From Anaerolineales bacterium (GTDB lineage Bacteria; Chloroflexota; Anaerolineae; Anaerolineales; Villigracilaceae): 64,000 bases of DNA. The position numbers were made by a program, and so were the translations under genes. The notes under the pieces were generated by a model. That model was not told where the DNA came from and ran no database searches. It worked only from the letters and a program-made list of their open reading frames with translations. Shown piece by piece: positions 42,379 to 58,072 of the stretch. Where the stretch lies: NCBI GenBank assembly GCA_020060625.1, contig JAGUZU010000034.1, forward strand, positions 1 through 64,000, written 5' to 3'. The first letter of the stretch is position 1; each line of letters opens with the position of its first letter.

Positions 42379-42714
42379 TTAGTCGTCTATCTTCTTCCAA
42401 AGGTCCAGCGGAGGGCGTTTCAACGGACGTGTCATGGCGGAAAGGTGCGCTTCGTAGTAGGGTTCCGCTTCGGTGGCGAAACGCGAGAGTTCAAAGAGGT
42501 TGCGTCTCACCAGCAGGTCGGCGATCTTTTTCACTTCCTCGCGGGTGAAAGGGAGATTTTCGGCGAGTTCCGTCAGGCTGAAGCGTTTGAGGCGAATGAC
42601 CGTGTTCAAAGCGGAACGGAGCGGCTCTGATAACATGACAATATCCGAAGGGCGGATGTCATCCGCGCGTTCCTCCAATTCTTCGATCGCAACTTGATAC
42701 GGTGATTTGTCCAT
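42379..42714 (-). CDS. winged-helix protein partner of the MinD-like ATPase (copy 1)
   Basis: A 111-aa protein whose centre (LSEPLRSALNTVIRLKRFSLTELAENLPFTREEVKKIADLLVRRNLFEL) reads as a winged helix-turn-helix. It follows a MinD-like ATPase by 27 nt in the same direction and ends at a terminator, so the two form an operon. A similar fold and the same pairing occur at 49884-50258. A strong GGAGG precedes the ATG. Whether it binds DNA is not known; small wHTH proteins can also be protein adaptors. Confidence 0.65.
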   Translation of the reverse strand: MDKSPYQVAIEELEERADDIRPSDIVMLSEPLRSALNTVIRLKRFSLTELAENLPFTREEVKKIADLLVRRNLFELSRFATEAEPYYEAHLSAMTRPLKRPPLDLWKKIDD

Positions 42715-42741: not shown

Positions 42742-43497
42742 TCAACCTTTGACCTGATCCACCAGACTGCGTAATCCCTTGGTGACGGGGTGGTCGGGGA
42801 AGTGGATGGCAAAAATGCCCGAACTGGCGAGGGTCATCATTTCGTCGGAGTGGGGCAGCACTGCGCCGACCGTGGCGTTATAGGTTTGTTCCACGCGCGT
42901 GCGTACGTCGTCGAAATCGAATGCGGTGGGGGTCTTGTTGACCAGCATCAGCATCTTTGGCACATCCAGTTTCTTGGCAACATCCACCGTAACGGCTGTT
43001 CCCTGATAGTCCTGTGAATCCGGGCGGAGGATGATAATCAGCGCGTTCGAGATGGCGATGGAGAGCAGGGTCTCTTCATTGAGTCCCGGGTGGGTATCGA
43101 TAAGCAGGTAATCGAGCTTGAGTTTTTCCACCACATCGCGGAAGCCGTCGTTGAGAAGTCCCACGTCGTAGCCTTCCCGCAGGATCCGGGCGATCTCACC
43201 CGGCTTGATGCTGGAAGGGACGAGGAATATCTGCCCTTTGATATCGCCGCCGACGTGTCCGGTCACATCGTGCGCGGCTTCTTCGATGGAGCATTTGCCC
43301 CAGAGATAATCGTTCAGCGAATGAACCATTTCGGATTCATCCAGATTGAACAGCACATGAATACCCGGCGACGCAATATCCGTATCCACTACGCCGACAC
43401 GCGCTCCATCCATCGCCAGCAGCGCGGAAATGTTCGCTGTTGTATTGGACTTTCCCGTCCCGCCACGGAAGGAGTGAATTGAAATGATTTTGGACAT
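42742..43497 (-). CDS. MinD/ParA-like ATPase (copy 1)
   Basis: A 251-aa deviant Walker A ATPase of the MinD/ParA group. The P-loop reads SFRGGTGKSNTT (residues 9-20): the second Lys is present, but the signature Lys before GG is Arg. Walker A' (VVDTDIASPGIHVLF) and Walker B (YLLIDTHPGLNEETLLSI) are intact. No C-terminal amphipathic membrane helix of MinD type is obvious. About half the residues match the copy at 48864. It is followed by a winged-helix gene and preceded by a GAGAGG site. It may be a spatial or regulatory switch; no Min or Par partner lies nearby. Confidence 0.8.
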   Translation of the reverse strand: MSKIISIHSFRGGTGKSNTTANISALLAMDGARVGVVDTDIASPGIHVLFNLDESEMVHSLNDYLWGKCSIEEAAHDVTGHVGGDIKGQIFLVPSSIKPGEIARILREGYDVGLLNDGFRDVVEKLKLDYLLIDTHPGLNEETLLSIAISNALIIILRPDSQDYQGTAVTVDVAKKLDVPKMLMLVNKTPTAFDFDDVRTRVEQTYNATVGAVLPHSDEMMTLASSGIFAIHFPDHPVTKGLRSLVDQVKG

Positions 43498-43690: not shown

Positions 43691-43783
43691 AACCTCTAAG
43701 GATGATTTCCGTTGATTATAGCCTAACTATACCGAAAGTCAAATCCCTACTTTTCCTCTCCCGTTTATGTTATATTCCGGCAA

Positions 43784-43795: not shown

Positions 43796-44404
43796 ATGAC
43801 GGCAAGGGAAACCCGCAACCCCTTTTTCAGCCTGACAACCACTAATTTTATGGAAAACATTCCAAAGACTGTTCCAGAAAACCCCAGCGATGAAACGCTT
43901 ATCCGGCAATTCAAGGAAGGCAGGAAGGAAGCGTTCGATACTCTTTACCGCCGTTATCTTCCGAGTGTTTACAAACGTGTAAGGTACGTGGCGCCGGAGA
44001 GCGATATTGAGGATATCACCCAGGAGGTTTTCATCGCGGCATTGAAATCGCTCCCGTCGTTTCGCGGCGATTCGCAATTTGGAACATGGCTTCGTACCTT
44101 AACAAATCATAAAGTAGCCGAATTTTACAGGAAGCGCAACCGCAAACAGGAACCACCCCTTGCGCCGCTCTCCGAGGCTTCCGGCAGGATGGAAGACAAC
44201 GACTCCAAGTCATTGGAGGAACGGGTCTTGATTCAACGGGCGTTGCAAAAACTGCCCCAGAATTATCGAGAGGTGATCCTCCTGCGCTTTGCCGAAGACC
44301 TGCAATTCAATGAAATTGCAGATCAGATGGATCAAAACCTCGAAGCGACCAAGTCCCTGTTCCGCAGGGCAATCTCTGCGCTTCGCAATCATCTGGATGG
44401 ATGA
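43796..44404 (+). CDS. ECF-type RNA polymerase sigma factor
   Basis: A 202-aa sigma70-family factor with region 2 (DTLYRRYLPSVYKRVRYVAPESDIEDITQEVFIAALKSL, about residues 47-90) and region 4 (LPQNYREVILLRFAEDLQFNEIADQMDQNLEATKSLFRRAI, about 148-190). It overlaps or abuts the next gene, a likely membrane anti-sigma factor, and a lipoprotein gene follows, so it may drive this locus. The start is ambiguous: ATG 43796 has a -10 box at leaderless spacing, while Met 19 (43850) fits the family N-terminus equally well. Confidence 0.88.
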   Translation: MTARETRNPFFSLTTTNFMENIPKTVPENPSDETLIRQFKEGRKEAFDTLYRRYLPSVYKRVRYVAPESDIEDITQEVFIAALKSLPSFRGDSQFGTWLRTLTNHKVAEFYRKRNRKQEPPLAPLSEASGRMEDNDSKSLEERVLIQRALQKLPQNYREVILLRFAEDLQFNEIADQMDQNLEATKSLFRRAISALRNHLDG

Positions 44405-44405
44405 A

Positions 44406-44870
44406 ATGAGCCAAATCGAACAGCACTCAAAACCAAATCTGGATGACCGGCTGGCAGAGTTTACGGATGAAGCGCTGGCAGGGCGGATGCAGCAAGTCGC
44501 TTCAGGCGCTGACGAGGAACTGCTCCTGCTCGAAGAAACGATCCTCCGCCTGAGAAAGACCTACCCTCCCATCTCGCTGGATGAAGCGCGCATAAAACAG
44601 ATGCAGGTCCGCCTGAATAATCACATAAAGCGGCTGGCGCAGGATGATCAACAACCGTTCTGGAAAACCTGGTTGACCCATCCGCAAATGGGCGCGGTCA
44701 TAGGAGCGCTGGTTTTATTGCTGGTATTCCTGCTGGCGTCGCCCTTTCTTTCAACTGCCGGGTCATCTGCGACCGCCACTGCGTTTACGCCCACCCAAAG
44801 CACAGTATTTCTGGCTGTGGGGTTGGTTGCTGTGGCGGCGCTCGTCTATTGGATAACACGCCGCAAGTAA
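44406..44870 (+). CDS. probable membrane anti-sigma factor
   Basis: A 154-aa protein with a soluble helical N-terminus (residues 1-75) and two membrane helices (about 95-117 and 129-148). No zinc-binding His-Cys-Cys motif is visible. Assignment rests on position directly after an ECF sigma gene, size and topology. ATG 44397 would overlap the sigma stop and is an alternative start. The lipoprotein gene begins 118 bp downstream; the gap carries no other feature except the AAAGGAG for that gene. Confidence 0.6.
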   Translation: MSQIEQHSKPNLDDRLAEFTDEALAGRMQQVASGADEELLLLEETILRLRKTYPPISLDEARIKQMQVRLNNHIKRLAQDDQQPFWKTWLTHPQMGAVIGALVLLLVFLLASPFLSTAGSSATATAFTPTQSTVFLAVGLVAVAALVYWITRRK

Positions 44871-44988: not shown

Positions 44989-46899
44989 ATGAATACCAAA
45001 AAGAAGCAAAATTGGCAGAGAAAAATATTTGCCCTGTTTGCAGTAACCCTGATTTTATCGCTCTTGCTGGCTGCTTGTGCCGCAGTTCCAGGTTTGGAAG
45101 GCGGCGCGGGCGGCGGTGGTAACAACAACCAAGGGGGTGGGGGCAGTAACGACAACCAAGGGGGTGGCAACTCCGGTGGTGGTGGAGGCGGCAACTCTGG
45201 CGGCGGTGGCAACTCCGGCGGTGGAGGCGGCAACTCTGGCGGCGGTGGCAACTCCGGTGGTGGAGGCGGCAGCTCCGGCGGTGGAGGCAACTCTGGCGGC
45301 GGTGGCAACTCCGGAGGCGGCAATTCCGGCGGCAGCGGCAATTCCGGCGGCAGCGGAAGTTCTGGCGGCAGCGGCAACTCCGGTGGCAGCGGAAGTTCTG
45401 GCGGCAGCGGCAACTCCGGCGGCAGCGGAAGTTCTGGCGGCAGCGGCAACTCCGGCGGCGGCAACTCCGGCGGCAGCGGAAGTTCTGGCGGCAGTGGCAA
45501 CTCCGGCGGCGGTTCGAGCGGACCGAGCGAACCTGGTACCGGTGATCCGAACGTTCAAAACCCTGGCGGTGTAATCGTGCGTGGTTCCAAGCAGGACGGT
45601 TCCGATCCATGTTTGGATGAAGGCGAACTCCCCTGTGGTCAAGGCGATCATGGACGCGGCAACCCGGTGACTGGCAGTTTGCACGCCAATTGTCGCGCGG
45701 CTCAGGGTGAAGTGGATCCGAAATGTACGCCGGATCAGATATTCCCTCCTCCAACCGAGCCTCCCACGAACCCTCCCCCAACTGAGCCTCCGACGAGTCC
45801 TCCTCCAACTGAGCCTCCGACGAACCCTCCTCCAACTGAGCCTCCGACGAGTCCTCCCCCCACAAATCCTCCTCCGCTTTCTCCGCCTCCAATCACGGAG
45901 GTGAAGGCAAAGGAATCTCCTGTGGCAGGCTCCTGCCCGAACTGGATCATGTTCCACTCGTTCCGCTCCGGCACACTGGATGTCTTCCGCTTGGACGGAT
46001 TTGAAGGCATGGACGGTGTCGAAGCAATCAACCTGAGCAACGGCAAGGCAATGGACTCGCGCCCCAGCCGCTCACCGGACGATCAATGGGTGGTGTTCCA
46101 AAGCACGCGCGATGGGAACGTCGAACTGTACCTGACCGACAGCATGGGCAAATCGCAGAATCGCCTGACGAACACGCAGTCGAATAACATCAATGCGATG
46201 TTCGGACCAGATAGCCAGACCGCCTTGTACCAGAGTGACCGAAACGGCAACTGGGACATCTTCATCCTGAACAAGGACACGGGCAAAGAACTGCAATTGA
46301 CCTCCAGCGTCTTTGACGATGTCAACCCGTTCTGGTCGCCGGACAAGAACTGGTTCACGTTCCAGTCGAACCGCAGCGGTTCGTGGAATGTGTATCTGTT
46401 CGACATCTCGACCGGCACGGAATACCAGGTGACCTCGTTCGCGACGGACGTGCTGTTCCCGAGCTGGTCGCCCAACGGAAAACAGCTGGCATTCTTCATC
46501 AACGTCAGCGGGACGTGGGATCTGTTCGTCTCGGACTTGAAGGGCGAGAGTTTCCAACAGATCTCGATTGGCGGGGATGCTGGGAACGCAACCTGGTCGC
46601 CGGAAGGCAACCGCCTCGCCTACCAGGTGACGGCTGGAGAGAACACCGACATCTTCACCTACGACCTGCAGAGCAACACGGAATACCAGTTGACGGACTT
46701 CGGCGGCGTGGACTCGGCTCCGACCTGGAACTGCGGCGGTACGGATGTATCCTTTACCTCGACGCGCGAGGGCAATCCGAACATCTACTCGACGTGGTGG
46801 CAAGGCGGTAGCGACATCTATGGCATCACCCTGCATCCATCCACGGATAAGTGGTCGCAGTGGTCCCCCTCCAAGGAACCTGGTTCCCGAGGTTACTAA
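44989..46899 (+). CDS. lipoprotein with Gly/Ser/Asn and Pro repeats and a TolB-like propeller
   Basis: A 636-aa modular surface protein. A lipoprotein signal peptide ends in LLLAAC near residue 31. Residues 37-180 are an almost pure Gly/Ser/Asn repeat (GGSGNSGG units). About residues 180-250 form a small Cys-containing module, 250-305 are PPTEPPT-type repeats, and 310-636 are PD40/WD40-like propeller blades (WSPDGN- and FQSNRSGSWNVYLFD-type). It is likely a cell-wall-spanning stalk with a binding head. AAAGGAG precedes the ATG. The upstream sigma/anti-sigma pair may control it. The repeat DNA is prone to length change. Confidence 0.85.
   Translation: MNTKKKQNWQRKIFALFAVTLILSLLLAACAAVPGLEGGAGGGGNNNQGGGGSNDNQGGGNSGGGGGGNSGGGGNSGGGGGNSGGGGNSGGGGGSSGGGGNSGGGGNSGGGNSGGSGNSGGSGSSGGSGNSGGSGSSGGSGNSGGSGSSGGSGNSGGGNSGGSGSSGGSGNSGGGSSGPSEPGTGDPNVQNPGGVIVRGSKQDGSDPCLDEGELPCGQGDHGRGNPVTGSLHANCRAAQGEVDPKCTPDQIFPPPTEPPTNPPPTEPPTSPPPTEPPTNPPPTEPPTSPPPTNPPPLSPPPITEVKAKESPVAGSCPNWIMFHSFRSGTLDVFRLDGFEGMDGVEAINLSNGKAMDSRPSRSPDDQWVVFQSTRDGNVELYLTDSMGKSQNRLTNTQSNNINAMFGPDSQTALYQSDRNGNWDIFILNKDTGKELQLTSSVFDDVNPFWSPDKNWFTFQSNRSGSWNVYLFDISTGTEYQVTSFATDVLFPSWSPNGKQLAFFINVSGTWDLFVSDLKGESFQQISIGGDAGNATWSPEGNRLAYQVTAGENTDIFTYDLQSNTEYQLTDFGGVDSAPTWNCGGTDVSFTSTREGNPNIYSTWWQGGSDIYGITLHPSTDKWSQWSPSKEPGSRGY
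45130..45520. repeat. minisatellite coding for the Gly/Ser/Asn stalk
   Basis: Tandem GGCGGCAGCGG-type units, many arranged as 18-bp pairs that alternate AACTCC and AGTTCT endings. The array is in frame in the lipoprotein gene and has no spacers. The antisense strand is open over the region and would give a Pro/Glu-repeat, which is a shadow. Confidence 0.85.
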
Positions 46900-47013: not shown

Positions 47014-48117
47014 ATGGTTCTGTACATAGCGCTGGGTATTGCATTTCTAATTCCTTTGGGATTTTTATATTTTATAAATAAGCGGGATTTATTCGACACT
47101 GGAAAAATTTACTTTGTTGTCGTTTCGATGATGTGGGGAGTGATGGCTTATCTCCTTGCTGCGCGGACGAATCCCTATATCATAGATGCGGGCTGGGCAA
47201 CCCGGGAGCAGGTGATTCGTATCACTGGTCCGATCCTGGAGGAACTGCTAAAAAGCCTGATTCTGATCTATCTGGTGCGGCGCGCGGATTTTAATTATGT
47301 TGTAGATGGCGCTGTCTATGGGTTTGGCGCGGGTATTGGTTTTGCCATCATCGAAAATTACGAATATATCGTCGGCAACCCTGAAATTGCGATTGTTGTG
47401 GCTGTGGCGCGGGTTTTTTCCACCAATCTTATCCATGCTGCAGGGAGCGGGGTCATTGGCGTGGCGCTTTCCGTGAGACGGGCGGAAAAAAGCGCGGTAA
47501 AAGGGTGGCTGTGGATATTGCTTGGGTACCTGTTTTCGATGTCGTTCCACATGATATTCAATACTCTGGTAAGCACGGGGATTGCCGTCGTTTTTGCAGT
47601 CATTTTTGGCGGAACGGGGGTGAGTTTGATCTACCTCGCCATTCGGCGGGGATTGAATATTCAAAAAGAATTCATCAGCGAAAAGTTGGGGGAGTTGAAC
47701 CGCGTTACGAAGAATGAAGTCAAGGCGTTGAACCGGATAGAGGAGTTGAATAAACTGCTGAAACCTCTCACCCTGCAATTCGGCGAGGAAAAAGCCGGGA
47801 AGGTGAAGACGATGCTCAGCAAACAGGCGGAAATCGGGATCAAGACCAAATTGCTCGATACCACTCCCAACGAAAGCAGGAAGCGGGAGATGGGCAGGAT
47901 CATCGACAGCCTGCATGCTGAAATGGAAACGTTGCGCAATGAAATTGGACCCTATTGCATGTTGTTCGTCCGGCAGGTGTATCTTTCGCAGGATATGAAC
48001 CTCTGGGGTTCGATCAATGCCCGTGTCGCTGAATCAAGCACAGGTCAAAAAGGAGGCGGGTTGTGGGACCGCGCAGCCAGCCGCGTGCAATCATCCAAAT
48101 CAGAGGAGGATGAATGA
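47014..48117 (+). CDS. PrsW-family intramembrane protease with cytoplasmic C-terminal domain
   Basis: The 367-aa protein has about eight membrane helices in residues 1-215 with PrsW motifs: EELLKS near residue 75, GFAIIENYEYI near 110, NLIHAAGSGVIG near 142 and SFHMIFN near 173. PrsW proteases cut membrane anti-sigma factors. A soluble helical domain of about 150 residues follows (residues 216-367), unlike short PrsW proteins. The stop overlaps the cyclic-nucleotide-binding gene by ATGA, so the two are coupled. Substrate unknown; candidates include the nearby anti-sigma factor at 44406. Confidence 0.8.
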   Translation: MVLYIALGIAFLIPLGFLYFINKRDLFDTGKIYFVVVSMMWGVMAYLLAARTNPYIIDAGWATREQVIRITGPILEELLKSLILIYLVRRADFNYVVDGAVYGFGAGIGFAIIENYEYIVGNPEIAIVVAVARVFSTNLIHAAGSGVIGVALSVRRAEKSAVKGWLWILLGYLFSMSFHMIFNTLVSTGIAVVFAVIFGGTGVSLIYLAIRRGLNIQKEFISEKLGELNRVTKNEVKALNRIEELNKLLKPLTLQFGEEKAGKVKTMLSKQAEIGIKTKLLDTTPNESRKREMGRIIDSLHAEMETLRNEIGPYCMLFVRQVYLSQDMNLWGSINARVAESSTGQKGGGLWDRAASRVQSSKSEEDE

Positions 48118-48851
48118 TGGGTCAGGATATTCTTGAGCATCTGAAAAAGACAAGTATTTTTAGCGGACTTACGGATGAAGCGTTGAGCGATGTCGCCAGG
48201 AGCGCGTCTGCGCGCAAAGTTGCAAAGGGCGATATCCTGATGAAAAAGGGCGAAGTTGGAGACTCGCTTTTTCTCATTCAACAAGGCTGGGTGAAGATCG
48301 TCACCGAAGATTCAAAGGGGGATGAACTGATCATCAACAAATGCGGACCCGGCGAAACAATCGGTGAGATGGCTTTGCTGGATCGAAGCCCGCGCTCCGC
48401 GACGGTGATCGCTTTGGAAGATGCGGAAGTGGTGGAACTGAAGCAGGACGTTTTTGAAAAAGTATTGAACCAGCGCCCGGATGTTTCGCTTTCGATCATT
48501 CGAAGCTATTCGGACCGCCTTCGTTTTTCCACCACCTATATCGAGAAGGCAATTGACTGGGCGCAAAAGATCGCGGAAGGCGATTATTCGTTCATTGACC
48601 AGACCCAGCCTGTCATGTCGAACGCCAAATCGGATGACGACAAGGCAACGCAGCTGCTTTCCGCATTCTTTACCATGGTTCGCAGGGTGAAGGAACGCGA
48701 AGAAGGCTTGAAACAACAGTTGGAAAAGTTGACGTTCGAGATCGATCAGGCGCGCAGAAAACAGGAATTCGAAGAAATAACCAGCACCGAGTTCTATTCC
48801 CGTCTCAAGGAGCAGGCAAAGGCGTTGAGACAGAAACGTTTAAATGAATAA
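48114..48851 (+). CDS. cyclic-nucleotide-binding protein with helical C-terminal tail
   Basis: A 245-aa protein. Residues 5-125 are a CAP/PKA-type cyclic-nucleotide-binding domain (FSGLTDEALSDVARSA..., GETIGEMALLDRSPRSATVIALED with the phosphate-binding cassette). There is no DNA-binding HTH. Instead residues 155-245 are helical and end in EITSTEFYSRLKEQAKALRQ. This tail matches the end of the GAF protein at 56496. It overlaps the PrsW gene by four nt; the MinD-like gene follows after 12 nt. A class III cyclase lies convergent 1.4 kb downstream and could supply the ligand. Confidence 0.85.
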   Translation: MMGQDILEHLKKTSIFSGLTDEALSDVARSASARKVAKGDILMKKGEVGDSLFLIQQGWVKIVTEDSKGDELIINKCGPGETIGEMALLDRSPRSATVIALEDAEVVELKQDVFEKVLNQRPDVSLSIIRSYSDRLRFSTTYIEKAIDWAQKIAEGDYSFIDQTQPVMSNAKSDDDKATQLLSAFFTMVRRVKEREEGLKQQLEKLTFEIDQARRKQEFEEITSTEFYSRLKEQAKALRQKRLNE

Positions 48852-48863
48852 CCTGGAGGTTTC

Positions 48864-49646
48864 ATGAAAGGCAAAATCGTTTCCATTCATTCCTTTCGAG
48901 GCGGGACGGGAAAATCCAACACCACTGCCAATCTTGCCGCTCAAGTGGCGATGGCGGGCAAACGGGTGGGTGTTGTGGATACAGATATTCAATCCCCCGG
49001 CATCCATGTGTTGTTTGGCTTGGATGAGGACAAAATGGGCAAGACCCTCAACGATTTTCTCCATGATAAAGCCACCATTCGTGAGATTGGCTTTCCAATC
49101 GGCGAAAATGCGAGCGGGGCGGCGGGACGCGCAAAACTGGCGGGCAAGAACTTGTGGCTGTTTCCCTCCAGCATTCGCGGACGCGAGATCAGCCAGATTT
49201 TGAAGGAAGGAATCGATTTCAACCGCCTGAACGAGGGGTTGCAAAGCACGATCAAGGAGTTTGATCTCGATTATCTCTTCATCGATACACATCCCGGCTT
49301 GAACGAAGAAACCCTGCTGTCCATTGCAACTTCGGACATCCTGATCATCATCCTTCGACCCGATCAGCAGGACCTTCAGGGAACCTCCGTCACTGTGGAC
49401 ATCGCCCGCAGCCTGGATGTGCCGAACCTGATTCTGATGGTTAACAAAGCCCTGCCCAAATATGACTTTGTCGAACTCAGGAAGGATATTGAAAGCAAGT
49501 TCAACGCGCCTGTGGCTGGCATTCTGCCGCTCTCCTTCGATCTCGCGGACAATGCCAGCAATGACCTGTTCTCTTTGTCCACCCCGGATCATGAGTGGTC
49601 CCGGTCCTTGCGTGAAGTGGCTCAGGCAGTCCTGACGCTGGGATAG
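48864..49646 (+). CDS. MinD/ParA-like ATPase (copy 2)
   Basis: A 260-aa paralogue of the protein at 42742. The P-loop is SFRGGTGKSNTT (residues 10-21), with Arg in place of the signature Lys; VVDTDIQSPGIHVLFGLDE and YLFIDTHPGLNEETLLSI match the other copy closely, as does LRPDQQDLQGTSVTVDIARSLDVP. A clear GGAGG precedes the ATG. It sits between the cyclic-nucleotide-binding gene and a zinc-protein gene in one operon. A MinD-like on/off membrane or protein switch is a reasonable guess; no partner is established. Confidence 0.82.
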   Translation: MKGKIVSIHSFRGGTGKSNTTANLAAQVAMAGKRVGVVDTDIQSPGIHVLFGLDEDKMGKTLNDFLHDKATIREIGFPIGENASGAAGRAKLAGKNLWLFPSSIRGREISQILKEGIDFNRLNEGLQSTIKEFDLDYLFIDTHPGLNEETLLSIATSDILIIILRPDQQDLQGTSVTVDIARSLDVPNLILMVNKALPKYDFVELRKDIESKFNAPVAGILPLSFDLADNASNDLFSLSTPDHEWSRSLREVAQAVLTLG

Positions 49647-49655
49647 GAGTTGACC

Positions 49656-49868
49656 ATGAAATGCTGGCACTGTGAAGAGGAAGCCCGCGCTTCATGCGCA
49701 TTTTGCGGACGGTTTGTCTGCAAGGATCACGCGGCGACCATGTCCACGTTCATCACGATGTTTGTGGGAGCAAATAACACCCCCAAAGGTTTGGCGGTTG
49801 CAAATGTCATCTGGTGCGGCGAATGTGAACCGCAGCCGGAACCGATCAGCATGCCTGAACTGTATTAA
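49656..49868 (+). CDS. small B-box-like zinc-binding protein, 70 aa
   Basis: The protein begins MKCWHCEEEARASCAFCGRFVCKDHA, a Cys/His pattern (CxxC, CxxC, CxxxH) like a B-box or rubredoxin-like zinc finger, with another CxxC-type site (WCGEC) near residue 58. The ATG at 49656 was chosen because AGGAG lies 7 bases upstream; a TTG six bases earlier is possible. It is nine nt downstream of the MinD-like gene. Function unknown; probably a binding or scaffold module. Confidence 0.75.
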   Translation: MKCWHCEEEARASCAFCGRFVCKDHAATMSTFITMFVGANNTPKGLAVANVIWCGECEPQPEPISMPELY

Positions 49869-49883
49869 AAGGAAGAGGTTGCC

Positions 49884-50258
49884 ATGCCCGGAGTCTTTGA
49901 TCGGTTAAACAAGGAAATTCAGGATAAACAGCAGGAAGGCGGGATTACCGCCCTCGACCTGGCTGACCTGCCGCCCGCCCTGCGGAAGATCATGCGCCTG
50001 ATGCTGCGCGAAATCCAGATGAACTACCCCCGGTTGTGTGAAGTAATGGATGCCATGCCTGAAAGGGAACGCCTCACACGCGACGAATTGCAGGGTGCCC
50101 TCTCGACGCTGACCAGCCAGTTTTGGTTGATTCGCATCGGCGAAGGAGAAAAAGCCATCTACAAGGTGAATTTGCGCCGCAAAGCGGGCAGTACGCTGGC
50201 GGCTGGTATCTGGTCGTCGTTGGATGAGAAATTAAAAAGGAATCCGAAGGATACCTGA
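49884..50258 (+). CDS. winged-helix protein partner of the MinD-like ATPase (copy 2)
   Basis: A 124-aa protein with the core LPPALRKIMRLMLREIQMNYPRL...LTRDELQGALSTLTSQFWLIRIGEG, which reads as a winged helix and lines up with the smaller protein at 42379 (LSEPLRSALNTVIRL...FTREEVKKIADLLVRRNLFELS). It ends the operon of PrsW, cyclic-nucleotide-binding protein, MinD-like ATPase and zinc protein, with GAGG five bases before the ATG. It is convergent with the cyclase gene. Confidence 0.65.
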   Translation: MPGVFDRLNKEIQDKQQEGGITALDLADLPPALRKIMRLMLREIQMNYPRLCEVMDAMPERERLTRDELQGALSTLTSQFWLIRIGEGEKAIYKVNLRRKAGSTLAAGIWSSLDEKLKRNPKDT

Positions 50259-50296
50259 CATCTTATCCTTGAAAACGATCTTGTGTGCCGGAAAAA

Positions 50297-51847
50297 CTAA
50301 TCTGCCGCCTTTTGCCCCGACAGTTCGTACAAAGGAACGGGCGCACTCTTGCCCTTAAGCGCCACATCTCCCAAATGACCGCATTCGTATTTTGACTCAA
50401 TTGCCCGCTTCACATTTTCGGAGATGACGATCTGGTTCTTCTGAGCGCGGTTCATCAAACGCGCCGCCGTATTGACGGTATCCCCGAGTACATTATATTC
50501 GCGGCGTCCGCGCGGTTCCCCAACCTCGGCAACGAATGCCGGTCCCGTGTTGATCCCGATCTGGCAATATATCTCCGGCTGGACGTTCCCGATGGTGGGC
50601 GGTTTCTGGCTTAGATTTTGTATCACCTCGCGGATGGCGATTGCCGCGGAGGCGGCGCGCATTTCGTCGTTCGTGTGGGCGGTTGGCACTCCAAAATAAA
50701 CCACGATATCCGACCCGGCAAGGTGATAGGTCACTTTCTTGAGAACGCCGCCGCGCGACTCCACCGCCGCATTGATCAGCGAAAACGCCCGTGAGAAACT
50801 CAATGCCAGTTTTCGTTCCTCTCCGGGCAGGGCGCGGTCGGCGGCTTCGGGCAGCCCGATAAAATTGATGAACATGATCGTCGGCTGCGGAAAATCCGGG
50901 GGAATCCTTCTGTCTGCCGCGCTTTCAACCAATAAAGATAACACCGGCGACGGGATAAAACTCGCAATCGGCTCGATATTGTTGAGCAGGGAAATGATCT
51001 GCTGTAATACCACGTTCTTGTCCCGCTCGATCACAATGTTGCTTGCCATGCGCCTTCGAAGCGGCGTGATCTCATATTCGCCCAATTGATCATCGGTCAG
51101 GTCGTCTGTAACAAAGTGATAACCCGGCTCTCCATCCTCGAAATGAAATTGGTCTGCCACCCGCTCATACGCCTTTTGCGAAAGATTCACCCGCCCGTTC
51201 TTTCCATTGCTTTCCGTCAACTTTGCCTGCTGCACATCCTTTCCCAGCAGCACGTGTTCCATGCGGCGCGGCGTGCCGATATCCGCTGTCAGGAACCTGC
51301 CCGGGTGAATGCCGATCCGCATCATCAAATTGACAACACCCGAAGGCGTTTCGATTTCTGCAAACCCCTTCATGGCTCTTTGCATCCGCAGACCGGCGCG
51401 AACGGCGCGCAGCGTATCGTCATTCCTGTCTGTTTTGGGGAAGATGACCAGCATGGCGTCGCCCGTAAATTCGACCAGTTCGCCGCCTGATTTGCTGATC
51501 ACAGAAATCATCGTGGAAAAATACTTCGTCAACTGCTTTAAAAGGTCTTCCGCGCCTTTTTTCCCTTTGGCGGCATTCGCCTCCATGAGTTTCGTAAAAC
51601 CCGCCAGGTCGGTGAACATCATGGTCCCGTATTGCCAGTCGGTCTTGACGTCTCCCGGCTTCAACGAACTAATATCGATTTGTCTCGAGGTGTAATCATG
51701 TAAAATTCGCTGCAACGTCCGCAAATGCTTGTGAACTTCGATCATAATGTCCACAGACGGGTTGCCCCACATGGAGGCGTACATTTCGGCTGGGAGTAAA
51801 TATCTCAACCGGCTTTCGATGGTGGTAAGCGGCGACTCGGGAAGCAT
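50297..51847 (-). CDS. class III nucleotide cyclase with tandem catalytic domains
   Basis: A 516-aa protein with two cyclase homology domains, as in soluble adenylyl cyclases. The first (about residues 75-225) has the metal-binding TDLAGFTKLME and ELVEFTGDAMLVIF motifs. The second (about 325-510) has degenerate metal sites (MFINFIGLPEA, Asn for Asp) but the conserved EIYCQIGINTGPAFVAEVG and YNVLGDTVNTAARL blocks. Product cAMP versus cGMP cannot be decided. There is no membrane helix. TATAAT lies seven bases before the ATG, suggesting a leaderless message. It is convergent with the winged-helix gene. Confidence 0.88.
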   Translation of the reverse strand: MLPESPLTTIESRLRYLLPAEMYASMWGNPSVDIMIEVHKHLRTLQRILHDYTSRQIDISSLKPGDVKTDWQYGTMMFTDLAGFTKLMEANAAKGKKGAEDLLKQLTKYFSTMISVISKSGGELVEFTGDAMLVIFPKTDRNDDTLRAVRAGLRMQRAMKGFAEIETPSGVVNLMMRIGIHPGRFLTADIGTPRRMEHVLLGKDVQQAKLTESNGKNGRVNLSQKAYERVADQFHFEDGEPGYHFVTDDLTDDQLGEYEITPLRRRMASNIVIERDKNVVLQQIISLLNNIEPIASFIPSPVLSLLVESAADRRIPPDFPQPTIMFINFIGLPEAADRALPGEERKLALSFSRAFSLINAAVESRGGVLKKVTYHLAGSDIVVYFGVPTAHTNDEMRAASAAIAIREVIQNLSQKPPTIGNVQPEIYCQIGINTGPAFVAEVGEPRGRREYNVLGDTVNTAARLMNRAQKNQIVISENVKRAIESKYECGHLGDVALKGKSAPVPLYELSGQKAAD

Positions 51848-51860: not shown

Positions 51861-51951
51861 CTTGAAACACTAAATCAGACCATTTGCAAGGCGCGCCCGG
51901 GTTTCCGGCGTATTTTTAAAATTCAAAATCAATTCAGAGGAGATGAAGAAA

Positions 51952-52784: not shown

Positions 52785-53915
52785 TTACTGATCTGACCAG
52801 ACCGGCTCACCATCGTACGCCACAGAGGAAGTGACCCGGATGAATTCATTGGTCGGCACGGTGACCAGATACAACTCCATATCTCCGCCGGCAAGCGCCT
52901 GGAAGATAAGCCTCACCCCGTCCGGCGACCAGGCGGGTGTGCCGCGCGGCTCGACCCCCTGCTCGAACAACTGGATGACCGTTTCATCGGTTATGCTGAA
53001 TACATTGATTCCATAGCCGGCGCTTTGTTTTGCATTTGCGGCGACCCACATGCCATTGGGCGACCAGGCGGGCGAACCGTACTCCGAAGGCGCAGAGGTG
53101 AGACAGCGCTGGTTCAACCCGTCCCGACCGATCAGGCACAGGTTGGAGAGATCGCCGACAGAGGATTTGTAGGCGATGATGCTTCCATCTGGCGACCAAG
53201 CCGGAGCGGAGTCTGGGGCGGCGCTTGTCGTCAGCGTGGAGACTGCGCCGTTCAGCGAAAGCAGCAGGATGTCCGAGTTCCCGAAGCGGTTGCTGACAAA
53301 TGCGATTTCACTACCATTGGGCGACCATACGGGGCTGCTGTCGCCCGCCGCGTCGTTGGTGAGGCGGATTTGGTTCGAGCCGTCCGCGTTTGTCACGTAG
53401 ATTTCGAGGTTTCCGTCGCGGAACGATTCAAAGACAAGCTGCTGCCCGTCCGGCGACCAGGAAGGGGCGGCGTCTCTTTCAGCCGTATCTGTGACGCGCG
53501 TAACATCGAGCGTGTTTAGGTCGAGAATGTAAATATCGGTATTGTCGTTCAGGGTGGAGACGAATGCCACCCGTGTTCCATCGGGCGAGATGACCGGATT
53601 GCCATCCTCCGAGCCGGAGGTCGTCAGCCGGATCTGTTGAATGCCGTCGGGTGTGGTTTTGTACAGACTCATTTGCCCGTCTCTGTTTGAGACGAAGATA
53701 ATGCTTCCAAAAGGCGCGGGTATGGGCGTGGCGGGGGGCGGCTCTTCCGGCGCATCTGTGATTTCAGCTGCGGCTGTGGGTTCATCTTCAGAGCCAAGTC
53801 CGCCGGCGCCGGGCAGGATATCCGCTGTCGAACCGCAGGCGCTCACGATGACCGATGCGAGAATCAAGAATACGGAAACAGGAATGGTTTTATAAGCGTT
53901 TTGGGTAAAAGTCAT
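52785..53915 (-). CDS. TolB-like beta-propeller lipoprotein
   Basis: A 376-aa lipoprotein with a signal peptide ending VIVSAC near residue 27, a Pro/Glu/Ala linker (residues 40-68) and six PD40-type repeats (NPVISPDGTRVAFVS, APSWSPDGQQLVFES, SPVWSPNGSEIAFVS, APAWSPDGSIIAYKS, SPAWSPNGMWVAAN, TPAWSPDGVRLIFQ). It resembles the head of the lipoprotein at 44989. It probably binds a ligand or protein at the cell surface. It follows the FAD oxidoreductase gene by 23 nt on the same strand. Confidence 0.85.
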   Translation of the reverse strand: MTFTQNAYKTIPVSVFLILASVIVSACGSTADILPGAGGLGSEDEPTAAAEITDAPEEPPPATPIPAPFGSIIFVSNRDGQMSLYKTTPDGIQQIRLTTSGSEDGNPVISPDGTRVAFVSTLNDNTDIYILDLNTLDVTRVTDTAERDAAPSWSPDGQQLVFESFRDGNLEIYVTNADGSNQIRLTNDAAGDSSPVWSPNGSEIAFVSNRFGNSDILLLSLNGAVSTLTTSAAPDSAPAWSPDGSIIAYKSSVGDLSNLCLIGRDGLNQRCLTSAPSEYGSPAWSPNGMWVAANAKQSAGYGINVFSITDETVIQLFEQGVEPRGTPAWSPDGVRLIFQALAGGDMELYLVTVPTNEFIRVTSSVAYDGEPVWSDQ

Positions 53916-53938: not shown

Positions 53939-55117
53939 TTAGGGGTCTTCGTTACGCCAGATGAAACCGTAATCATGTTCGCCTTTGAGCATTTCGCCGC
54001 GTTCGAATCGCTTGGGGTCGAAGCCGGTCAGGTCAACGGCGGTGGATTTTCCGTCCACGATCAGTTGGCTGACGCACAAACCGACAGCAGGGGAGAGCTT
54101 GAAGCCGGTGCCGCTGAATCCTGTGACGAGATAATATCCCTCGGGTCCTGCCGCGCCGATAATTGCCCGTTGATCCGGGGTTAAGCCGTCCCTGCCAACA
54201 TGGGTGGAATGAAGCGAACCTTCCTCCATGGATGGGATGCGCATGCAGATGCGTTCGATGGCGCGTTCCACAAAGTCTTTGGCGGCGTAGCCAAGATCGG
54301 CTTCGGGGGGTTCACCGAGGCGGCTGTCATCTTCGAGGGCGATCAAGGTCAGGTCGCCGGAATCAGGCCGAAAGTACATGTTGAGCGAACTGTCGATCAC
54401 GGTTGGATGGTCGGTGATTTGGGCAGGTCTGCGGACGTGGAGGACGTCGTGAGTCCAGGTGTCAAGCGGAATGGGCACGCCGAACAGATCGCTTATTTTT
54501 CCAGCCCATGCGCCTGCCGCGTTGATGACGATGGGGGCGGAAAAGTCGCCGCGCGTGGTTTGGACGCCGGTAACTTTGGTTCCTGTGAGGTGGGCGCCGG
54601 TCACTTCGCAATCCTGCGCATAGCTGGAACCCAGCGATTTTGCCGCTGTCAGGAGGGAGTTCGCGGTCAGCGTCGCATCTGCGTATCCGGATTCGGGTTC
54701 ATACGCGGCAATCTCGATGTCATCTGTTTTGAAAAAAGGAGCCAGTTTTTTGACTTCATCCCCGGTGATCACTTCGGTGGGAATGCCGATTTTTTTGTGC
54801 ATCTCCACGTTGGCGCGAAGTTTGTCGCGATGCTGCGGCGGCTCGATGTGCAGGAAGCCGGTGCGGCGGAAGCCGCATTCGCCGCCCACACGTTCGCCCC
54901 AATTACGGAAGTATTGAAAACTTTCCCAGGCGAGCCGCGATTCCAATTCGAGGTCGTAGTGCATGCGCACAAGTCCGCTGGAACTGCCTGTCGCACCAAA
55001 GCCGACCTGCCTGCGTTCCAAAATGACGGGTTTCAGACCGCGTTTTGCCAGGTGAAAGGCAATGCTCGTCCCTATTACGCCTGCTCCGATGATGATTGCA
55101 TCAAAAGTTTTTGACAT
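53939..55117 (-). CDS. FAD-dependent oxidoreductase of the DAO/sarcosine oxidase type
   Basis: The 392-aa protein starts with the dinucleotide-binding motif DAIIIGAGVIGTSIAFHLAKRG and an ERR after beta 2, followed by GATGSSSGLVRMHYD, the DAO family substrate-region motifs and a C-terminal GFSGTGFKLSPAVG that completes the FAD site. Family members oxidise amines, sarcosine, glycine or glycerol phosphate; the substrate is not readable. AAGGA lies upstream of the ATG. A propeller lipoprotein gene follows in the same transcript. Confidence 0.85.
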   Translation of the reverse strand: MSKTFDAIIIGAGVIGTSIAFHLAKRGLKPVILERRQVGFGATGSSSGLVRMHYDLELESRLAWESFQYFRNWGERVGGECGFRRTGFLHIEPPQHRDKLRANVEMHKKIGIPTEVITGDEVKKLAPFFKTDDIEIAAYEPESGYADATLTANSLLTAAKSLGSSYAQDCEVTGAHLTGTKVTGVQTTRGDFSAPIVINAAGAWAGKISDLFGVPIPLDTWTHDVLHVRRPAQITDHPTVIDSSLNMYFRPDSGDLTLIALEDDSRLGEPPEADLGYAAKDFVERAIERICMRIPSMEEGSLHSTHVGRDGLTPDQRAIIGAAGPEGYYLVTGFSGTGFKLSPAVGLCVSQLIVDGKSTAVDLTGFDPKRFERGEMLKGEHDYGFIWRNEDP

Positions 55118-55429
55118 TTTGTTATCCTTGTGGGTTATTGCACGGACCCTGTAACTTTAGTGGCAAATGTACGCCCAAACGGGTCAGCGCGGAATATCCG
55201 GTTATTTACAGTTTTGAAAGTAACTCATTTGATCCTGGCAGGATGTCGATGAACACTATCCACGTCAGTTTTTTATCACGAAGCGCGTCAAGCCGCCAGG
55301 AAAACCATTAAAACTTCGCGTTCGCTTCAGCAGGCTCAGCACGGGCTTTACGCTCCTGGCGGTTCAAATGTATGGTAGAAAGTAATACTATCTCTATCTG
55401 AAATTGCGAAAGGTAAGTAAAATCATCCA
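55118..55429. repeat. intergenic region with a palindromic repeat
   Basis: No gene seen. It holds an inverted repeat CCGCCAGGA (55293-55301) with TCCTGGCGG (55354-55362), enclosing CTTCAGCAGGCTCAGCACGG, a variant of the dispersed 'gacaggctcagc' repeat. Confidence 0.6.
55418..55423 (+). promoter_or_regulatory. -10 element (TAAAAT) 6 nt before ATG 55430
   Basis: TAAAAT is followed by six bases and ATG. It supports the upstream start of the glycosyltransferase gene and leaderless transcription. Confidence 0.45.
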
Positions 55430-56566
55430 ATGTTGTATGATCGAACTGCCGCGCGAACTCATGGTGAAATCATGAAAAATCCGAAATACGTAATTACCGT
55501 TGATCTTGATTTGCCTCCGTTGAAGTCAGGGCTGGAACCATATTACGCCTTCGGGCAATTTCCATCTGCTCGTAATTTCAGGGAGGATATTGCCATTTCA
55601 ACCCGGCGGCTGTGGACGCTCTTGAAATGGGCGCGGCATTGCGAGGTGATGGTCTTGGACAGCGTCAGCGGACGGTTCCATCCGGATTTGTTGGCATGTG
55701 TTTTCATACGTTTTTTTTCCAAGCGACCGGTTATTGTGATGGCGGATGATATGTGGAACAAAGGAGGGATGCTTAAATATATATTTCAAAAAACGATCAT
55801 CCGCGCGGCGGACCCGGCTATTCATCGGTATGCGGTCCATTCGCTTGGGGAAGGAAAAATTTTCGCCCGGTTGTGGGGCATTTCACCTGAAAAAGTGCGG
55901 ACATGTATTTACAATTTTACCTTTACCGACGATGAAATCAACGCCGGAGAAATCACCTCCAATGGCTACATTTTTGCGGGAGGAAGTCCGTTAAGAAATT
56001 ATGATTTATTATTGGAGAGCGCGCGTCAACTGCCCCACCGCCAATTTGTCATTGCCACGCGCGTACTGAAAGGGCGCAAGGACATTCCTGAGAATGTGCG
56101 GGTTGTCCAGGTCTCGCATACGGAATTTATCCGCCTGATGCGCGAATCCGACATGGTCGTAACGCCGCTCGCTTCCGGGGGGACGAGGTCGGGTGGTCAG
56201 CAAACCTATCTTAACGCCATGCGAATGGGGAAGATCAGCATGGTAAATGGAAATGACGTGCTTGGCGTAACAGATTACATCCAGGATCGCGTTAATGGGA
56301 TTATTACCGACGGCACGCCGCAGGGATTTGTCGAAGCGATTGAGTGGGTATATGACCCCTCCAACCTGAATGCGGTGAATAAAATCAAGCAGAATGCCCA
56401 GGAAACCGTGAAGGAATTTTCGTATGAGCGTTACCTCTGCACAATGACGGCGATTATCGAAGAGGCGGTTGCGGAAGCAAATGCTCGAGAATCGTCTACT
56501 TGTCCTGTCGTGTCCGCATTTCCCTGGCTTTCTCCCGTAGATCCTGAAAAAACTTGGACTCGGTAA
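55430..56566 (+). CDS. glycosyltransferase (GT-B fold, family 4-like)
   Basis: A 378-aa cytosolic glycosyltransferase-like protein. The second half has IFAGGSPLRNYDLLLESARQLPHRQFVIATRVL, VVQVSHTEFIRLMRESDMVVTPLASGGTRSGGQQTYLNAMRMGKISMVNG, the usual C-terminal donor domain of GT1/GT4 enzymes. Donor and acceptor are unknown. ATG 55430 is supported by a -10 box at leaderless spacing; Met 15 (55472) with GGTGA is an alternative. The last 71 nt overlap the convergent GAF gene tail to tail. Confidence 0.7.
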   Translation: MLYDRTAARTHGEIMKNPKYVITVDLDLPPLKSGLEPYYAFGQFPSARNFREDIAISTRRLWTLLKWARHCEVMVLDSVSGRFHPDLLACVFIRFFSKRPVIVMADDMWNKGGMLKYIFQKTIIRAADPAIHRYAVHSLGEGKIFARLWGISPEKVRTCIYNFTFTDDEINAGEITSNGYIFAGGSPLRNYDLLLESARQLPHRQFVIATRVLKGRKDIPENVRVVQVSHTEFIRLMRESDMVVTPLASGGTRSGGQQTYLNAMRMGKISMVNGNDVLGVTDYIQDRVNGIITDGTPQGFVEAIEWVYDPSNLNAVNKIKQNAQETVKEFSYERYLCTMTAIIEEAVAEANARESSTCPVVSAFPWLSPVDPEKTWTR

Positions 56567-57392
56567 TTTCCGCCACCTGACGGGATCGGCGCGTTTCGTC
56601 GATCTCGATTTTTAATTTGGCGATTTCCTGACGCAGCGCCGTCTCACGAATGTAGCCATCCAGCGCGGCGGTTGCGAGCAGAATGAGCGCTTCCAGCGCA
56701 TCGTCGTCTGCAAAAGGGATGATTCCGCCCGATTGCTGATCCTTCGCATTGATCAATTGCAAAACGCCGATCAAATTCCCATCCTTGTTTTCAAGGGGGA
56801 TGGTGAGAAAGGATTGGGAACGGTACCGGGTTTGCTTGTCGAAGGATTTTGTGCCGGAGAAATCGAATCCCTCCGCCTGGTAGGCGTCGGCGATGTTGAT
56901 GCGCTTGCGGGTCAACGCCGCATAAGAAACCACATTGGAACGGTTTTCGCTTCCATCCACATTATGGAGGGGAACAGGGCTAAAGGGGATTGGAGTTCCG
57001 CTTGTGCCGCCCATCGTCATGTTCAGGGAAGTATTCCGCAGGATCACGAATTTCAGCAGGTCGTCTTCCACAAGGTATAACGTGCCAGCATCGGCATTTG
57101 TCACTGCCTGCGCTTCCACCACGAGCGATTCGAGCAGACGGTTGAAGTCCCTTTCAGCCGAAAGCGAAACACCGATGGGAATCACCTTCCTTAAAAGGCG
57201 CAGTTGATTGTCCCGCAACAAAATACCATTTGCCATCACGTCCAATAGGCGCGCCAATTGACCGAGGTCCCCGCCATCCTCCCGCAGGTCCTTCAGGAGT
57301 TCGGAGGTATATTCGCCCGCCTCCACTGCGCGGACAGCCTGCATGATTCGTTTGAGCGGAGAAGCGGAACTGATGACTGTAAGGTCTGGCAT
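56496..57392 (-). CDS. GAF-domain protein with the shared C-terminal tail
   Basis: A 298-aa protein. A short helical N-terminus (residues 1-75) precedes a single GAF domain (about 80-245: LLESLVVEAQAVTNADAGTLYLVEDD, TRYRSQSFLTIPLENKDGNLIGVLQLINAKD). After it comes a helix ending in EITESKFFQDLREKAREMR. That tail matches the end of the cyclic-nucleotide-binding protein at 48114. AGGA lies eight bases before ATG 57392, and TATACT at 57413-57418 on the same strand fits its promoter. It overlaps the convergent glycosyltransferase gene by 71 nt and diverges from nadD. Confidence 0.82.
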   Translation of the reverse strand: MPDLTVISSASPLKRIMQAVRAVEAGEYTSELLKDLREDGGDLGQLARLLDVMANGILLRDNQLRLLRKVIPIGVSLSAERDFNRLLESLVVEAQAVTNADAGTLYLVEDDLLKFVILRNTSLNMTMGGTSGTPIPFSPVPLHNVDGSENRSNVVSYAALTRKRINIADAYQAEGFDFSGTKSFDKQTRYRSQSFLTIPLENKDGNLIGVLQLINAKDQQSGGIIPFADDDALEALILLATAALDGYIRETALRQEIAKLKIEIDETRRSRQVAEITESKFFQDLREKAREMRTRQDK

Positions 57393-57405
57393 ATTTTCAT
57401 CCTGT

Positions 57406-57446
57406 TTTCGAGAGTATACCACCGGTGCGCATGCGCCCTCTCGAAA
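57406..57446. promoter_or_regulatory. divergent promoter region with inverted repeat (GAF gene / nadD)
   Basis: Nine-base inverted repeats TTTCGAGAG (57406-57414) and CTCTCGAAA (57438-57446), with a GCGCATGCGC palindrome (57428-57437) between, lie between two divergent TATACT -10 boxes (57413-57418 minus, 57455-57460 plus). A shared operator is possible. Confidence 0.45.
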
Positions 57447-57454
57447 GTTTGCGA

Positions 57455-57460
57455 TATACT
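57455..57460 (+). promoter_or_regulatory. -10 element (TATACT) 6 nt before the nadD ATG
   Basis: TATACT is followed by six bases and ATG 57467, with no ribosome binding site. It suggests a leaderless nadD message. Confidence 0.5.
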
Positions 57461-57466
57461 TCGCGC

Positions 57467-58072
57467 ATGTCAAAAAATAAAATCGGTCTTTTCGGCGGCA
57501 CCTTCGATCCGCCGCATATCGGTCATCTCATCCTTGCCGGTGAAGCGGCTTCCCAGTTCGATCTTAACCGCCTGCTTTGGGCGCTCACCCCGAACCCTCC
57601 TCACAAACAGGAAACCCCCATCACGCCGCTCCCACATCGGCTTGCCATGCTGCAAAAGGTACTCTCGTATCACCCGGTCTTCGAACTCTCGAGACTCGAA
57701 ATAGACCGACCCGGTCCCCACTATACGATTGACACAGTGCGACTCCTCGCCCAGCAGGAACCGTCGGCGGAGATCATTCTGCTCATTGGCGGCGATTCGC
57801 TTCGAGACCTGCCAGGCTGGCGCTTCGCCGCCGACCTCGTGGCTGCGGTTTCCAAAATCGGCGTGATGCGCCGCCCGGGCGGCTCCGCAGATTTGAACGA
57901 GCTCGAGGCGAAACTTCCCGGCGCGGCGGAAAAGATCAAATTCATAGACGCCCTCCTGCAGCCCGTCTCCTCGCGTGAATTGAGGCGTCGTATTGCGGCA
58001 GGGGAAATGTATCGGTATTACGTCCCGCCTGAAGTGTACGAATATATCGAAGCGAATCATCTATATCGTTGA
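57467..58072 (+). CDS. nadD: nicotinate-nucleotide adenylyltransferase NadD
   Basis: NadD makes deamido-NAD from nicotinate mononucleotide and ATP. The 201-aa protein has the nucleotidyltransferase signature GLFGGTFDPPHIGHLILAGEA (residues 7-27), NPPHK, RLEIDRPGPHYTIDTVRLL, LLIGGDSLRDLPGW and the C-terminal SSRELRRRIAAGE (ISSTxIR-type) motif. The ATG at 57467 was chosen because the signature begins four codons later and a -10 box lies six bases upstream. An MFS gene follows after 18 nt. Confidence 0.93.
   Translation: MSKNKIGLFGGTFDPPHIGHLILAGEAASQFDLNRLLWALTPNPPHKQETPITPLPHRLAMLQKVLSYHPVFELSRLEIDRPGPHYTIDTVRLLAQQEPSAEIILLIGGDSLRDLPGWRFAADLVAAVSKIGVMRRPGGSADLNELEAKLPGAAEKIKFIDALLQPVSSRELRRRIAAGEMYRYYVPPEVYEYIEANHLYR

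Follow-up and report, generated by a model that had tools for sequence, protein, structure and literature searches.

A conserved gene cluster around a MinD-like ATPase in an Anaerolineales bacterium: a tail shared by diverse sensors and a possible route through PrsW to an ECF sigma factor

A gene cluster of an Anaerolineales bacterium (Chloroflexota, Anaerolineae, Villigracilaceae) was analysed on a stretch of 64,000 nucleotides (nt), referred to as the window (contig JAGUZU010000034.1 of assembly GCA_020060625.1, positions 1 to 64,000 of the forward strand). The cluster (Table 1) codes for two MinD-like ATPases (MinD1, MinD2), a PrsW-type intramembrane protease, a receptor for cyclic nucleotides (cNMP), a small zinc-finger-like protein (Zn protein), two winged-helix proteins (WH1, WH2), a tandem-domain class III nucleotide cyclase, a sigma factor of the extracytoplasmic function (ECF) type and a putative anti-sigma factor with two transmembrane (TM) helices. 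The receptor ends in a tail of about 55 residues which recurs on diverse sensor proteins and mostly occurs in the same genomes as the MinD-like ATPase. That tail and ATPase work together is the strongest inference from these sequence comparisons. With about even confidence, we favour a signalling cluster built on the MinD-like ATPase, through which tail-bearing sensors would act and which would be coupled to PrsW, the putative anti-sigma factor and lipoprotein expression. Somewhat more tentatively, we propose a widespread and hitherto undescribed class of signal transduction systems in Chloroflexota, Cyanobacteria, at least one Deinococcus and one Rhizobium, in which one tail on many input sensors may drive a MinD-like ATPase switch where a kinase or cyclase would otherwise act; the Chloroflexota form of this switch may be wired to an ECF sigma factor and to a PrsW-type intramembrane protease that is gated by a nucleotide.

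The tail comprises residues 191-245 of the receptor, which align to the C-terminus of otherwise unrelated neighbour proteins. Its consensus, drawn from 22 sequences, is RE..LRQEV..LRIEIDE.KR..QV.EITET..F..L...A..MR.R. In the proteins that were scanned it is preceded by cNMP-binding, GAF, HAMP, dCache, CHASE2, CHASE3/4HB_MCP, Tll0287-like or Nif11 domains. None of the 13 tail proteins scanned by Pfam showed a catalytic output domain; they have sensor domains or nothing clear, and the one from Rhizobium gave doubtful hits only. The tail lies at most 30 residues from the C-terminus in 111 of 126 tail-containing open reading frames (ORFs), a set which includes duplicate genomes. Two further tail proteins are encoded in the Anaerolineales genome itself (contigs C22 and C139), beyond the two in the window. 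A comparison of the tail with PDB gave nothing credible, the best match being a designed scaffold (E 0.038). According to the excerpts of PMC1592074, the S-helix, which is likewise coiled-coil-like, spans some 40-55 residues and stands behind sensor domains, mostly connects a sensor with a catalytic domain and bears an ERT signature at its centre; the tail differs in being mostly C-terminal, in lacking ERT and in tracking the MinD-like ATPase. An assignment to the S-helix was ruled out, as the consensus contains no ERT and the tail is C-terminal in the 111 ORFs mentioned.

All counts of genes and domains rest on profile matches against six-frame ORFs. In a class sample of 199 genomes, which includes the genome under study, MinD relatives (E < 1e-30) were found in 25 genomes, with identities of 34-92% outside that genome. 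Tail and MinD occur together in 23 genomes, MinD alone in two (G137, G144), the tail alone in three (G116, G187, G227), and 171 have neither (Fisher 1e-24). For a phylum sample of 201 genomes (MinD cut-off 1e-50) the corresponding numbers are 24, 1, 1 and 175 (Fisher 9e-29); both Fisher values ignore relatedness, and the two samples overlap by at least 8 carriers. The two elements are thus together in 24 of the 26 carriers of the phylum sample, and 14 of these 24 lie outside the Anaerolineae. The single MinD-only genome (G418) is 80% complete, and the single tail-only genome (G355) has a match to 30 of the 55 positions. Among 72,556 plasmid records, MinD was found in 13 and the tail in six, five of which are among the MinD records (two from Nostoc and one each from Kovacikia, Pseudanabaena and Deinococcus). 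On a Rhizobium jaguaris plasmid, a tail-like ORF of 153 residues is found directly 5' of the MinD gene.

Several of the cluster proteins exist as natural fusions. In one genome (L142) receptor domain, tail and MinD form a single protein of 507 residues, with genes for Zn, WH and cyclase behind it. PrsW is fused to a cNMP domain in 8 ORFs from 7 genomes (L053 and L101 are one contig, and L076 extends past its contig end); six of these ORFs carry the tail, and all eight show a phosphate-binding-cassette-like motif ending in PRSA. Fusions of WH and cNMP domains were detected by profile in five ORFs. Four of these (L056, L065, L114, L137) were read by eye and run on into a ParA-like region whose P-loop is not intact; L165 stands by its profile match. 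MinD is joined to WH in four cyanobacterial ORFs, in three of which the P-loop appears degraded by eye, and a cyclase-WH fusion was found by profile (L060). The iterated cNMP profile drifted to tail and coiled-coil sequence and was therefore not used alone for counts. A further ORF of 1405 residues (L073:11608-15822, minus strand) joins MinD to Ser/Thr-kinase-like and FHA-like parts, as judged by eye.

The gene neighbourhood was compared in 40 stretches around MinD or WH matches. In close relatives the order is WH2-MinD2, then sigma factor, putative anti-sigma factor, PD40 lipoprotein (not always present), PrsW, cNMP receptor, MinD1, Zn and WH, and finally the cyclase. Protein identities in the closest genomes range from about 38% (PrsW) up to 99% (Zn protein). 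Some distant relatives (L127, L134, L140, L141) show the order sensor-MinD-Zn-WH-PrsW-cyclase, and in L142 the cyclase is placed before PrsW. As gene order is kept in related genomes, the cluster is more than a chance arrangement. An earlier note on this DNA, made from the sequence alone, had described a run of five genes from PrsW to WH1 with a convergent tandem cyclase, and had proposed that the cyclase supplies a ligand which the receptor passes to the MinD-like switch, possibly coupled to proteolysis. All six genes are found where it placed them. Its start at 47014 was too late, the real start being at 42379: WH2, MinD2, the ECF sigma factor, the putative anti-sigma factor and the PD40 lipoprotein, all upstream, were absent from it. 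It would have been contradicted by genes that are not neighbours in related genomes, or by a MinD-like protein and a receptor that never co-occur; the neighbourhood is kept, and the two proteins co-occur in relatives, once as the single protein of L142. Its interpretation is partly supported: an action of the receptor on the MinD-like switch gains support from the common tail and the fusions, and a coupling to proteolysis from the PrsW-receptor fusions in 7 genomes and the upstream genes for the ECF sigma factor and the two-TM protein.

With E values of up to 1e-3 allowed, a MinD scan of genome contigs gave at least 578 relatives, of which the best 80 were used. By title, 45 of these loci are non-cyanobacterial and 35 cyanobacterial; some share genomes with the other stretches compared. 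The tail is present in the stretch for 58 of the 80 loci (38 of 45 and 20 of 35, respectively). Near MinD, which here means within 3-6 kb, with some loci cut by contig ends, the non-cyanobacterial loci have WH in 45 of 45 cases, Zn in 40, the tail in 34, PrsW in 33, the cyclase in 28 and the sigma factor in 16. Zn and WH adjoin MinD jointly in 40 of the 45, with PrsW as well in 33; Zn, WH, PrsW and tail occur jointly in 29 of the 45, and together with the cyclase in 20; within the stretches examined, a cyclase near MinD was not found in 17 of the 45. The cyanobacterial loci have the tail near MinD in 16 of 35 cases, WH in 13 and the cyclase in three.

A number of observations weigh against the reading as a signalling cluster coupled to PrsW and the sigma factor. 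PrsW, Zn and sigma genes were found near MinD in none of the 35 cyanobacterial loci, so that the PrsW/sigma arm is not general. No tail was found in the stretch examined for 22 of the 80 MinD loci, nor in the plasmid stretches of Streptomyces, Nostoc NIES-3756 and Pseudanabaena galeata (L174-L176; the Pseudanabaena galeata record has a tail elsewhere), and 8 of the 13 MinD plasmids gave no tail match in the plasmid search. In the class set, the distance to MinD is at most 3 kb for 25 of 59 tail sites and at most 10 kb for 34 of 59; from this partial linkage, one or two ATPases may serve several unlinked sensors. The tail is not always terminal, as a CHASE2 protein (L136) and similar cyanobacterial ORFs have about 95-295 residues behind it. 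The putative anti-sigma factor, in its window form, has no Pfam family, and its model has no PDB match below E 1.8. As to the promoter analysis described below, the motif was defined on the sigma sites, many of the lipoprotein sites are orthologous to each other, and the 19 control sites include several that are alike. Finally, fusions and co-occurrence would also fit co-localisation or cargo positioning. ParC/ParP or PomZ-type systems position cargo, and the MinD-like ATPase might similarly place tail-bearing sensors at a membrane or nucleoid site, with WH as the DNA adaptor. Membership in the MinD/ParA family agrees with such a device, as does a single tail common to many different cargoes, and the WH1 model weakly matches the pNOB8 partition protein AspA (5k5q, E 0.007) and the pNOB8 entry 4rs8. 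The clusters with cyclase, PrsW, sigma or SpoIIE/STAS genes, however, point to a signalling output, and the WH-cNMP and cyclase-WH fusions suit regulation better, so that we consider a positioning device rather unlikely.

MinD1 matches Pfam AAA_31 (67.0 bits) and ParA (61.2 bits), both above cut-off, and among PDB sequences it matches archaeal MinD (1hyq) best. The deviant Walker A motif of MinD/ParA proteins carries a signature Lys (KGGxGK). The P-loop of the ATPase described here is RGGTGKS, with an Arg at the place of the signature Lys, which is found in at least 90% of the relatives; the Lys of the P-loop is invariant in 27 aligned relatives. The score for the cell-division MinD equivalog TIGR01968 is 49.8 bits, where 212.9 are required. 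A crude hydropathy scan of MinD1 showed no TM helix. Compared to the MinD-like regulators FleN/FlhG and to archaeal MinD (1hyq), the fold family is the same and a transcription-related partner is plausible; the differences are the near-invariant Arg and the tail-bearing sensors as partners. The Zn protein has four visible Cys/His pairs, with all Pfam matches below cut-off. The Pfam scan of the window proteins WH1 and WH2 gave no match; among 44 aligned WH relatives, matches at E up to 0.05 were obtained to MarR_2 (9), IclR (6), Penicillinase_R (6) and TrmB (5). The AlphaFold model of WH1, of middling quality (pLDDT 66, pTM 0.46), has the order helix-strand-helix-helix-strand-strand expected of a winged helix, and a fold search with this model matched ArsR/MarR/MecI structures weakly (best E 0.006).

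PrsW scores 81.6 bits for PF13367 (cut-off 23.5) and 42.3 bits for the PrsW equivalog NF033739 (curated cut-off 225). The motifs EExxK, FxxxE, His and HxxxN/D, as listed in the excerpts of PMC12943098, are present as EELLK (76), FAIIE (110), HAAGSG (141) and FHMIFN (178). There are 4 matches to PrsW-type genes in the genome. The receptor matches the Pfam family cNMP_binding (90.5 bits) and the cyclase matches Guanylate_cyc in two stretches (126.1 bits), both above cut-off. Fifty-six cyclases were aligned, some of them longer multidomain proteins which align poorly at some motifs. In most relatives the first domain (C1) retains both metal-binding Asps (FTD..GD) and the second (C2) retains Asn and Arg (N..R), with the first metal Asp substituted. 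One composite site is therefore likely, as in other tandem cyclases, given the usual roles of these residues. The positions for base recognition do not follow the usual patterns of adenylyl or guanylyl cyclases, and we thus leave the product unnamed. The tandem class III cyclase of the earlier note is confirmed; cAMP and cGMP are candidates for the ligand that it would supply.

Cyclase and receptor also match the PADLOC models PycC and PycTIR, as would be expected if the nucleotide were an alarm in Pycsar-type anti-phage defence. The hallmark of Pycsar is a TIR or TM effector with a cNMP domain beside the cyclase. The receptor match, however, spans only the first ~145 residues (the cNMP part), gene order is kept across the genus, and there is a predicted lipoprotein regulon; we consider Pycsar defence highly improbable. 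It was rejected as a candidate because the receptor consists of a cNMP domain and the tail only, without a TIR or TM effector domain.

The sigma gene is divergent from the WH2-MinD2 pair. Its first ORF start is probably too early, and the proposed start agrees with relatives and with the promoter. The two-TM gene begins at the end of the sigma gene. Its product, the putative anti-sigma factor, has a cytosolic helical part, two TM helices, a short loop and an RRK end, and was modelled by AlphaFold with a mean pLDDT of 78.5 and a pTM of 0.41. In 20 of 21 sigma upstream regions we found CRACCC and, at a fixed spacing of 18 nt, at least four of the six positions of SACYAA (all six in 12 regions); the 21st has the variant CAGCCC at unchanged spacing. 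At the sites surveyed the motif ends 4-5 nt 5' of the sigma start codon. A tighter pattern has two matches in the genome under study, one before the sigma gene and one before the gene pair DAO-PD40b, and none when reversed. A related pattern has 51 sites in 41 genomes of the genus, versus 19 for the reversed control. The 49 distinct sites comprise 15 before a sigma gene, 20 before a lipoprotein gene (18 by the lipobox rule, L180 and L181 by eye), 5 before DAO and 9 others. Thus, 20 of the 34 non-sigma sites precede a lipoprotein gene, versus 0 of the 19 control sites (p 1e-5, uncorrected for orthologous sites); no control site stands before a sigma or lipoprotein gene, whether judged by rule or by eye. 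The sigma factor is predicted from these sites to be autoregulated and to have a surface-lipoprotein regulon. A second ECF-sigma-like gene is present in the window (62103-62711, minus strand), and an M50 (site-2-type) protease with CBS domains is encoded about 5 kb from MinD2 (36839-37939, minus strand) and also at the edge of L078-L080; it might make a second cut in the putative anti-sigma factor.

PrsW-RsiW-sigmaW of Bacillus subtilis is a system of regulated intramembrane proteolysis. The window cluster resembles it in that the PrsW motifs are intact, an ECF sigma factor and a probable anti-sigma membrane protein adjoin, and an autoregulated sigma promoter is predicted. It differs in that the two-TM partner has no Pfam match to an anti-sigma family, that a cNMP receptor is adjacent or fused, and that the operon adds a MinD-like ATPase, Zn and WH proteins. 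A plain PrsW/ECF-sigma envelope stress pathway of this kind, with cyclic-nucleotide input on PrsW and with MinD, Zn and WH as unrelated passengers, would account for PrsW, the sigma factor, the two-TM protein and the predicted lipoprotein regulon. It would also suit the excerpts of PMC3482391, where PrsW-cNMP fusions are already noted. Yet MinD keeps Zn and WH beside it in 40 of 45 loci, with the sigma gene near in only 16, the cNMP-tail-MinD fusion exists, and tail and MinD are paired in cyanobacterial loci without PrsW; we regard such a pathway as improbable. In the excerpts of PMC3482391, PrsW proteins that carry fused cNMP, PilZ, FHA and Zn-ribbon domains are read as signalling peptidases, and a PrsW-PilZ fusion from Leptospira appears in those of PMC12943098. 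A nucleotide receptor attached to PrsW is common to these fusions and the window cluster; in the same excerpts they have no context of MinD-like ATPase, tail, WH or sigma operon. Among the matches listed from the open-access literature, none brings PrsW or cNMP receptors together with MinD-like ATPases, and the tail, its link to MinD and the sigma/lipoprotein circuit were not met there.

The sequences themselves show the gene content and its conservation, the fusions, the joint occurrence of tail and MinD, and the promoter motif with the genes that follow it. For the signalling cluster that we favour, the following scheme is proposed, in which we infer every binding, cleavage and catalytic step. 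Diverse sensors would carry the coiled-coil-like tail, usually at the place of a kinase or cyclase output, and would dock on the MinD-like ATPase or activate it through this tail. The class III cyclase would make a cyclic nucleotide, to be read by the adjacent receptor. The receptor tail would set the ATP state of MinD1, which may work with the Zn and winged-helix proteins of its operon, and the receptor would gate PrsW, its fusion partner in several genomes. By analogy to PrsW-RsiW, PrsW would then cut the two-TM anti-sigma factor encoded upstream, and the freed ECF sigma factor would transcribe its own operon and surface-lipoprotein genes. Docking of the tail on MinD, cleavage of the two-TM protein by PrsW and the cyclase product as receptor ligand are less certain than the cooperation of tail and MinD. 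For many bacterial sensors, annotation gives HAMP, Cache, CHASE or GAF domains but no output domain. Should the tail serve as an output towards a MinD-like ATPase, a group of these orphan sensors would acquire a partner that can be tested. A cyclic-nucleotide receptor would then also have a concrete route via PrsW to an ECF sigma factor, for which a promoter motif and candidate targets are at hand.

The MinD family is also found in other surroundings. On plasmids of Deinococcus, Streptomyces and Nostoc (L171, L174, L175) it stands beside glgX, AGE epimerase and STAS-type genes, and SpoIIE also adjoins it in the first two (L171, L174). These resemble SpoIIE-STAS-GlgX partner-switching clusters, presumably those named the IcfG cluster, and differ from the window cluster in that the output would be partner switching, not PrsW/ECF sigma; the glgX/STAS-linked MinD family may also feed a partner-switching, glycogen-linked pathway. 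In L066 and L068 a sensor with HAMP domain and tail and a MinD gene adjoin a SpoIIE phosphatase (by Pfam in L066), with RsbW-like and STAS-like genes adjacent (by eye and clustering). In L172 and L176 the MinD family occurs near NHLP/Nif11 genes for ribosomally synthesised and post-translationally modified peptides, among them genes for cNMP-domain proteins.

Table 1. Features of the cluster and its surroundings in the window.
Feature	Position	Strand	Basis or remark
WH2, second small winged-helix-type protein, partner of MinD2	42379..42714	-	WH profile match
MinD2, MinD-like ATPase, P-loop HSFRGGTGKS	42742..43497	-	54% identity to MinD1
Sigma70-like promoter TTGACT-16-TATAAT directed at MinD2, conserved	43714..43744	-	read by eye, orthologous intergenic regions
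ECF-type promoter CAACCC-N18-CACTAA, 5' of sigma gene	43816..43845	+	motif comparison among relatives
ECF sigma factor	43850..44404 (proposed start; first ORF start 43796)	+	Sigma70_r2, r4_2
Putative anti-sigma factor, two-TM	44397..44870 (start 44397 or 44406)	+	helical cytosolic part, TM pair
PD40 beta-propeller lipoprotein; stalk rich in Gly/Ser/Asn and Pro/Thr	44989..46899	+	
PrsW intramembrane protease; cytosolic C-terminal part of ~150 residues	47014..48117	+	Pfam, motifs
cNMP-binding receptor	48114..48851	+	Pfam; conserved tail at residues 191-245
Receptor C-terminal tail	48684..48848	+	alignment to otherwise unrelated neighbours
MinD1, MinD-like ATPase	48864..49646	+	Pfam AAA_31/ParA
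Small zinc-finger-like (Zn) protein, C2/C2/CH/C2	49650..49868	+	Cys/His pairs
WH1, winged-helix protein	49884..50258	+	Pfam matches of relatives, AlphaFold model
Tandem-domain class III nucleotide cyclase	50297..51847	-	Pfam; one composite site likely
PD40b, second PD40 lipoprotein, predicted sigma target	52785..53915	-	
DAO, FAD-dependent-oxidoreductase-like (named by eye); first gene behind second ECF-type promoter	53939..55117	-	
Second copy of ECF-type promoter	55157..55186	-	
GAF sensor, HAMP match below cut-off, ends in same tail as receptor	56499..57473	-	

The junctions between the PrsW, receptor, MinD1, Zn and WH1 genes measure -4, 12, 3 and 15 nt. The Zn ORF has the start codon TTG, and an ATG follows at 49656. 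Divergent from the cyclase gene, a short lipoprotein is encoded at 51943-52719 (plus strand); it resembles the N-terminal part of a peptide-binding protein and was clustered in 4 loci together with the window.

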